Shown: one piece after another, positions 11,298 to 47,490 of the stretch
Numbering within the stretch: position 1 is the first letter of the stretch
How the letters are laid out: every line of letters starts with the position of its first letter
Source: Planctomycetota bacterium
GTDB taxonomy: Bacteria > Planctomycetota > Phycisphaerae > Sedimentisphaerales > Anaerobacaceae
Assembly (NCBI GenBank): GCA_022563885.1
Contig: JADFMM010000013.1
Location: 1 to 47,490, forward strand
Direction: 5' to 3'
DNA length: 47,490 nucleotides
Translations under genes and position numbers: made by a program
The notes under the pieces: generated by a model
Seen by the model: the letters and a program-made list of their open reading frames with translations, nothing else
Told to the model about the DNA's origin: nothing
Databases searched by the model: none

Positions 11298-11466
11298 GGC
11301 CTGGTTCACAAAAATGTGCATAAGGGTAGCAGTCCGTCTGGCCTGTTTTCGTGCTCAGCGAAGCGCTACTCGTCATCGTAACCGAGAGCGCCGAGAAGCC
11401 GATTACGAGTACGAGCACCAGTACGATTCCGACGTCGAGTCGTATAACCCGGAATTGAGCCAGGCC
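11298..11466 (-). mobile_element. Dispersed palindromic MITE-like element, copy A
   Basis: 169 bp bounded by 11-bp inverted repeats (GGCCTGGTTCA at 11298-11308; TGAGCCAGGCC at 11456-11466, 10 of 11 paired). Flanks CAAACTTC (11290-11297) and CAAATTTC (11467-11474) look like an 8-bp target duplication with one change. Read on the minus strand it aligns closely with copy B (24885-25047). The interior has TCGTNN-type repeats able to fold into a long hairpin. No transposase is encoded; the short open frames inside are repeats, not genes. The rest of the 11090-11649 gap holds no clear gene. Confidence 0.8.
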
Positions 11467-24884: not shown

Positions 24885-25047
24885 GGCCTGGTTCAATTCT
24901 GGGTTACACGACTCGACGTAGGAATCGCATTCGTGCTCGTAATCGGCTTCTCGGCGTTCTCGATTACGATTACCCCTTCGCTGAGCACGAGCACGAAAAC
25001 AGTTCGGACAGACTGTTACCCCTATGCACACTCTTGTGAACCAAGCC
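24885..25047 (+). mobile_element. Dispersed palindromic MITE-like element, copy B
   Basis: 163 bp with inverted ends GGCCTGGTTCA (24885-24895) and TGAACCAAGCC (25037-25047, 10 of 11 paired). It is flanked by a perfect 8-bp duplication AAGAATTG (24877-24884 and 25048-25055), the clearest sign of transposition. Interior arms TCGTGCTCGTAATCG (24931-24945) and CGATTACGA ... GAGCACGAGCACGA (24961-24996) can pair. It lies between the second sigma-54 activator and the sigma-54 promoter. The rest of the 24671-25132 gap shows no gene. Confidence 0.85.
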
Positions 25048-26972: not shown

Positions 26973-27123
26973 AGGCTCTATTTGAAAACTCCATCGTCAG
27001 GCCCGGGAGCGAGCGTTTTTCGCCTGGCGAAGACGGAGAAGCAGGCGATGTTGCTTCCATCGTCAATGCAGCCAGGCGATAAACAAGCCGCTCGAAGCCA
27101 GGTGGAGTTTTCAGACAGAGCCT
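26973..27123. mobile_element. Second MITE-like element, 151 bp
   Basis: Terminal inverted repeats of 21 bp (AGGCTCTATTTGAAAAC... at 26973-26993 and its complement at 27103-27123) agree at 19 of 21 positions. The interior is GC-rich and encodes nothing recognisable; the frame across it (26937-27308) is not credible as a gene. No target duplication is seen. The ends are unrelated to copies A-C. It lies in the 823-bp gap between the two flagellar operons, together with the tandem repeats and the sigma-54 promoter. Confidence 0.65.
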
Positions 27124-47251: not shown

Positions 47252-47295
47252 AAGACTCAAGCAATCTAAGGGCGTAGATACAATTCTGAAAAAAA

Positions 47296-47474
47296 GGCCT
47301 GGTTCATTTCCGGGTCACATTCCCGATCGTTGTCGTTGTCGTGATCGTAATCGAAACATGGGATTGGGGCAATCACGGGTATCGATTACGACAACGACAA
47401 CCGCTGCGCTGATTACGACCACGAGGAGTGGCACACGGACTGGCACCTATGCGAGAACGATTCTGAACCAGGTC
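47296..47474 (+). mobile_element. Dispersed palindromic MITE-like element, copy C
   Basis: 179 bp with ends GGCCTGGTTCA (47296-47306) and TGAACCAGGTC (47464-47474, 10 of 11 paired). Flanks GAAAAAAA and GAAGAACA agree at six of eight bases. It shares the ends and the subterminal CCGGGT and ACGGACTG...TATGC blocks with A and B, but its inner arms differ: GTTGTCGTTGTCGT (47329-47342) pairs with the 47383-47401 stretch CGATTACGACAACGACAAC. The element is non-coding. Confidence 0.75.
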
Positions 47475-47490
47475 GAAGAACAGCACACTC

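Follow-up and report, generated by a model that had tools for sequence, protein, structure and literature searches.

Genes set between complementary or inverted repeats are known from two kinds of described systems. In intervening sequences (IVS) of 23S rRNA, e.g., that of Coxiella burnetii, the S23p ORF lies between complementary ends that form a stem, and these inserts are sporadically spread; S23p has no assigned function, and IVS mobility is debated (PMC4990558). In REP/REPIN-RAYT systems, and in TIRYT and TIRtrons, a gene is framed by inverted repeats and is accompanied by many gene-less matching palindromes. A single genome may have several types, each with its own gene, and the REP tag is described as a GTAG or CGTC tetranucleotide (PMC3733652). 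Genes of the S23 domain family PF05635 are further described from 18 cas loci (PMC3936711) and from rRNA inserts of CPR bacteria (PMC11270868). In addition, Avd of diversity-generating retroelements is described as a structural relative of PF05635 proteins (PMC10053308).

We analyzed a 47,490-nucleotide stretch of Planctomycetota DNA (hereafter, the window), in which three copies (A, B and C) of a self-complementary repeat had been noted. The inverted repeat at 47329-47401 was confirmed: its arms at 47329-47347 and 47383-47401 are 19 nt long and 95% complementary, and a further arm pair of copy C (47335-47366 and 47370-47401) is 81% complementary over 32 nt. The core CGTAATCG occurred six times in the window, compared to 1.12 expected, and none of 100 shuffles reached six. 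These are not free hairpins, but internal parts of longer elements bounded by terminal inverted repeats (TIRs). Copies A, B and C were found to be complete MITE-like elements of 163-179 bp with an 11-bp TIR, GGCCTGGTTCA, and 8-bp target duplications, and each contained a hairpin of GTNNTC/GANNAC hexamers.

Copy C, recognized by its TIR pair and homologous to 23 other copies of its subfamily (subfamily C), occupies 179 bp at 47296-47474 on the plus strand. Its left TIR is at 47296-47306 (plus strand) and its right TIR, with one mismatch, at 47464-47474 (minus strand). The flanking target-site copies, assigned on the basis of the family-wide 8-bp duplications, are eroded: gaaaaaaa at 47288-47295 is paired with gaagaaca at 47475-47482, and 6/8 positions agree. 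The left arm, GTTGTC GTTGTC GTGATC GTAATC, is at 47329-47352 (plus strand) and the facing arm, GATTAC GACAAC GACAAC, at 47384-47401 (plus strand), in agreement with the GTTGTC/GACAAC units previously reported for this copy. A mini-hairpin at 47403-47409 reads GCGCAGC on the minus strand, i.e., a GNA triloop on a GC stem; GNA loops closed by at least two G-C pairs are described as exceptionally stable DNA mini-hairpins (PMC4686876).

Copies A and B represent a single subfamily (AB) in opposite orientations. Copy B (24885-25047, plus strand) has an exact 8-bp duplication, AAGAATTG, on both sides, a left arm GTGCTC GTAATC at 24933-24944 and a right arm at 24962-24994, both on the plus strand; the latter consists of GATTAC GATTAC, a broken mini-hairpin and GAGCAC GAGCAC. 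Copy A (11298-11466, minus strand) is flanked by caaacttc and caaatttc (7/8 positions). The arm units of these two copies are GTGCTC/GTACTC/GTAATC facing GATTAC/GAGTAC/GAGCAC. Self-complementarity had been claimed for every copy; the inverted repeats are real, but the core of copy A is imperfect (CGTCATCGTAACCG vs facing CGATTACG). Another inverted repeat of the window, which is not built of hexamers, spans 26973-27123; its 21-nt arms show 90% complementarity and are separated by 109 nt, and a 14-nt pair is nested between them at 27015-27084.

The 11-mer GGCCTGGTTCA was present in 115 exact copies in the 6.5-Mb assembly, compared to 4 for the reversed control. Searches of the same genome with copies B and C yielded 40 scored regions each, nearly all of which were different copies. 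Among copies with both ends, target duplications of 8 bp with at least 7/8 positions matching were detected in 31 of 43 AB and 11 of 23 C elements, whereas shuffled partners gave means of 1.2 and 0.6 and maxima of 6 and 3, respectively; 77 of 146 raw TIR pairs fell outside all three subfamilies and were not counted, and these may include reverse readings and chance pairs. Another listing contained 128 TIR pairs, many of them nested and spurious. The third homologous subfamily, D (L090, L038 and L072), has GAAATC/GATTTC arms and GAAATC/GATATC/GGGATC units, compared to GTGCTC/GTACTC/GTAATC units in AB and GTTGTC/GTAATC units in C. Arms of the subfamilies consist of tandemly repeated hexamers, with GNNNTC units in the left arm and GANNNC units in the right arm, and AB, C and D can be aligned over their length, including subterminal GGGTNACA/TGTTACCC, despite different matched arms. 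Of 61 genomes, three had DNA matches to copy B, and each of these belongs to the window's genus; the Planctomycetota MAG B36T1B5 carries the same element.

With terminal inverted repeats and a target duplication of fixed length (8 bp), AB and C elements have the anatomy of a MITE derived from a DDE insertion sequence. They share with bacterial MITEs of this kind the TIR, AT-rich 8-bp target duplications, a size of 160-190 bp, tens of copies and the absence of an ORF, but differ in a modular hairpin core that is common to unrelated elements elsewhere. A search of the genome for PF12762 identified no transposase carrying the TIR GGCCTGGTTCA. IS1595 was rejected as the parent because the TIR of its single genome copy (the sole PF12762 copy, L097 1031-2091), GGGGGTAGTCGGTTAG / GGGGGTAGTCGGTTAGCTCCTCC, is unrelated to that of the MITEs. 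Several MITEs were arranged in pairs, back to back (L010/L042 at contig C79 7234-7593 and L013/L056 at contig C453 5752-6093); the C79 pair combines different subfamilies and has a common 8-bp target, AAATTTCG, as if one had inserted at the end of the other. One D element (L072 11-289) is 279 bp long, with extra internal sequence and intact TIRs.

The original prediction was that repeat copies keep base pairing while arm sequences change, which could be checked by covariation in a larger alignment. When 44 rows from subfamilies AB, C and D were aligned, 37 cells were changed on both sides, compared to a shuffled mean of 17.3 (0/500 shuffles) and 4-11 in slid controls, and the covarying cells clustered at the two positions that vary within the hexamer units. 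For the three subfamilies together, arm match was 0.546 vs 0.377 in shuffled pairs (0/2000). Within AB, however, arms matched no better than shuffled ones (0.488 vs 0.501), and within C the match was weak, as 124 of 2000 shuffles reached the observed value. Because the paired changes sort by subfamily and are absent within AB, covariation in the MITEs amounts to approximately two subfamily switches. Paired changes are real between subfamilies, but matched changes do not occur copy by copy within AB, and these values do not support selection on hairpin pairing at the level of individual copies. Arm type switches jointly between subfamilies. Among the explanations offered at that time, exchange of the arms as a unit fits best.

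These patterns could also arise in a conventional MITE whose palindrome drifts. The TIR element would be moved by a DDE transposase, the number of hexamers would rise and fall by slippage, and template-switch copying of one arm from the other would occasionally re-match the arms; pairing would then persist without function, and the matched arms of S23 elements (see below) would have the same mutational origin. In the window's genome, the TIR and target duplications suffice for dispersal. Moreover, the number of units is free and uncorrelated between AB arms (-0.11), copy-level matching is missing in this subfamily and no G·U excess is seen. We nevertheless consider this explanation unlikely in view of observations made outside the MITEs.

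S23 genes framed by matching hexamer arms, with an acidic tail encoded in frame, are spread across phyla. Four-helix-bundle genes have acidic repeat tails, and PF05635 was examined for this reason. The MITEs of the window encode no S23 protein; the window's genome had eight PF05635 matches, with hexamer arrays near three of them. The genes with or beside these arms are of type C (L068), type D (L066) and type AB (L065), and all three arm types also occur among the MITEs of this genome. Arms of L065 are not flush with the S23 ORF, and the C-type gene (L068 1300-1750) is frameshifted; its counterpart in G001, a related genome, is open (L257). Identity of the proteins was indicated by TIGR02436 (E 2.8e-18 and 1.5e-20), PF05635 and PDB 2gsc (E 3.1e-14).

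Across 22 genome handles (21 distinct genomes), 9 of 76 S23 places had arrays on both sides, and all nine doubly framed genes fell in one clade. A profile of this clade, based on seven seeds chosen for having arrays, matched 31 of 392 Planctomycetota genomes at 1e-20 and 7 of 116 Thiodictyon-family genomes at 1e-25. It was also scanned over all collected S23 loci, resulting in 67 distinct rows. At a score of at least 130, arrays were present on both sides in 18 of 21 rows and on one side in 3, so that each of the 21 had at least one array, whereas only 3 of the 46 rows below 130 had arrays on both sides. As the seeds had been picked for their arrays, 11 blind clade members from two genome searches were counted separately: nine had arrays on both sides and two on one side. 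Phylogenetic analysis recovered a 23-row clade (support 100/99) with arrays in all members, 19 on both sides and 4 on one, in a tree that has few columns for its rows and whose label counts compare these two states only; its rows for L068 (frameshifted, read with X) and L313 (starting upstream of the domain) include non-domain letters.

In these S23 elements, the upstream arm stops near the start codon, and in most cases the downstream arm encodes an acidic tail: 26 of 29 downstream runs were in frame with S23. The DYDNDYDN-type tails found in four-helix-bundle proteins of this kind are explained in this way as translated repeat arms. Arm types included GTTGTC, GAAATC/GGGATC, GGGGTC/GCTATC, GTGATC/GCAGTC, GTTCTC, GTATTC and GTCCTC. 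The two arms of an element matched each other with a score of 0.664, compared to 0.166 for swapped partners (0/10,000), for n=21, a number that overstates independence because some rows are close relatives (L257/L068, L391/L392 and L387/L388). Excluding GTAATC/GATTAC, the values were 0.630 and 0.116 (n=19). Two elements, L272 and L386, scored 0, their arms not being matched by exact unit, and L391 has GACTGC at the mirrored place of its GTGATC/GCAGTC arm. Protein similarity tracked arm type (r=0.467) and did so between phyla (0.335, 0/5000), with phylum labels assigned by hand from genome origin; this correlation does not prove recognition, as it is explained by co-inheritance of linked arms.

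As a more stringent test, hairpins unlinked to S23 genes were sampled over 400 kb in each of three genomes. In G520 (S23 arms GAAATC/GGGATC), 12 of 13 hairpins were of the same type, and in G070, with S23 arms including GGGGTC/GGTATC, all 6 were. No convincing dispersed hairpins were detected in the 400 kb of G274 (S23 arms GTTCTC). Arm type of the S23 element agrees with unlinked dispersed hairpins in two of the three sampled genomes. In addition, S23 and hairpin types agree in the rows of G203, and G065 has hairpins of its own S23 type as well as GATACC/GACCCC and GAGTAC hairpins for which no matching S23 gene was found in this genome. The hairpins of G070 have unrelated flanks, whereas those of G520 lie inside a larger repeated element. 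Because these surroundings differ, the hairpin appears to be a module able to travel in different carriers, of which the TIR MITE of the window is one.

Hexamer hairpins were not limited to the window's genus. A palindrome scan of genome contigs identified at least 102 stretches in at least 10 lineages, with hairpins in Chromatiaceae, Planctomycetota, Verrucomicrobiota, Lentisphaerae, Riflebacteria, Anaerolineae, Desulfobacterota, Hydrogenedentota, Gemmatimonadota and Sumerlaeota. Among the first 80 loci analyzed, all 32 that were listed had a GTAATC tip followed outward by GTGCTC, GTTGTC, GTATTC and other units, and a nested mini-hairpin was frequent among these 32. Of 35 distinct mini-hairpins from outside the window's genus, 23 had a GNA triloop (1 in 16 by chance), 20 of the 23 were situated between A and G, and their stems varied (GC, GT, AT, GTCC and GTCGC). 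In five hairpins of Chromatiaceae (L163, L181, L202, L219 and L221), an outer GAGACCGTCTC-type palindrome replaces the GNA mini-hairpin. A Thiodictyon MAG (G061) has a very large load of hexamer arrays, with 3117 matches to CGANNNCGANNNCGANNNCGA on both strands vs 21 for the reversed control.

ORFs beside the dispersed hairpins belonged to no recurrent family, with no Pfam family above 4 (125 of 127 ORFs; two long ones were left out). A five-sequence S23 profile matched near short hairpins in only one of 80 loci within the stretches examined, at a distance of 2.6 kb, and hence there is no cis link between S23 genes and the short hairpins of other phyla. PF05635 had no match in either of the two hairpin-bearing Riflebacteria genomes, no insertion footprint was detected at hairpins outside MITEs, and a literature search with the repeat sequences as words retrieved no relevant paper. 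The drifting palindrome accounts neither for the recurrence of the GNNNTC/GANNNC register, the GTAATC tip and the GNA mini-hairpin in unrelated genomes nor for the framing of one S23 clade, and it leaves unexplained that dispersed hairpins in G520 and G070 are predicted by the arm type of S23.

Alternatively, the arms may pair in a transcript, as in IVS; RNase III or S23 would act on the RNA stem, and dispersed copies would be processed RNA elements. The layout is the same as in IVS, with the S23 ORF between complementary ends (PMC4990558), and a stem whose upstream arm stops this close to the start codon could control translation. However, on the sense strand of S23 stems, G·U pairs were not in excess (57 vs 67 A·C), although this comparison is weak because the local alignments are gappy. 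GNA triloops on a two-pair GC stem are described as a signature of DNA stability (PMC4686876), Rfam had no match in the window, and the hairpins adjoin unrelated genes. Both the GNA mini-hairpins and the absence of a G·U excess point to DNA rather than RNA; the structured RNA proposed earlier for these repeats finds no support here, and we regard an RNA stem as quite improbable.

Recognition of the hairpin as single-stranded DNA by a Y1/HUH (RAYT-like) transposase, as in REP/REPIN and as envisaged in the original prediction, is highly improbable: Y1 matches in 21 of 22 genome handles (two being the same genome), 19 of them in the window's genome, and the strand-specific mini-hairpins would suit such an enzyme, but arrays were near only 3 of 30 Y1 loci, two of these being coding-like and one convincing as a flanking case, the complete chromosome G071 bears hairpins without a Y1 match, and the MITEs leave 8-bp duplications, which HUH enzymes are not known to make.

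As in 23S rRNA IVS, the S23 elements have an S23/IVP four-helix-bundle ORF set between complementary, stem-forming ends (18/21, with matching arms), but here each arm is a tandem array of hexamers, the downstream arm is part of the coding sequence and the genome also carries dispersed, gene-less hairpins of matching type. With REP/REPIN-RAYT they share one framed gene plus gene-less palindromes of matching type, and several types per genome; the differences are the absence of a Y1 transposase, hexamer units in variable number and a four-helix bundle without known catalysis. No paper naming this arrangement of hexamer arms and S23 was found among those listed in searches of open-access text.

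We consider it somewhat probable that S23 elements and gene-less hairpins, some of them lodged in MITEs, form a master/satellite system. The S23 element would be the master and the gene-less hairpins its satellites, and recognition of the hexamer stem, probably at the DNA level, would link them. In such a system, an S23 protein would bind extruded DNA hairpins of its own hexamer type; binding may drive or guide the copying, insertion or protection of the element that encodes it, and may act likewise on gene-less hairpins of matching type elsewhere in the same genome. Within the window's genus, some hairpins would have become fixed inside a TIR MITE, moved by a separate, putative DDE-type transposase. 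If S23 recognizes the stem, it follows that arm sequence would change only jointly, as a unit. A broader proposal, that of a novel kind of system which moves or maintains hairpins, is tentative, and we regard it as a possibility: S23 proteins may be sequence-specific DNA binders of hexamer hairpins, with a separate code for each paralogue (GTTGTC, GTACTC/GTGCTC, GAAATC/GGGATC, GGGGTC, GTGATC and others), that propagate the framed gene and its satellites across phyla without a classical transposase, with 23S rRNA IVS as an rRNA-lodged branch.

S23 proteins have been familiar for decades from 23S rRNA intervening sequences, without an assigned function. Framing of S23 genes by matched stems provides a first clue to what these proteins may recognize. 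Each S23 paralogue comes with a predicted target, which turns the question of S23 function into a direct binding test. If the proposed recognition is true, hairpin type would be readable from the protein sequence, and the reverse.
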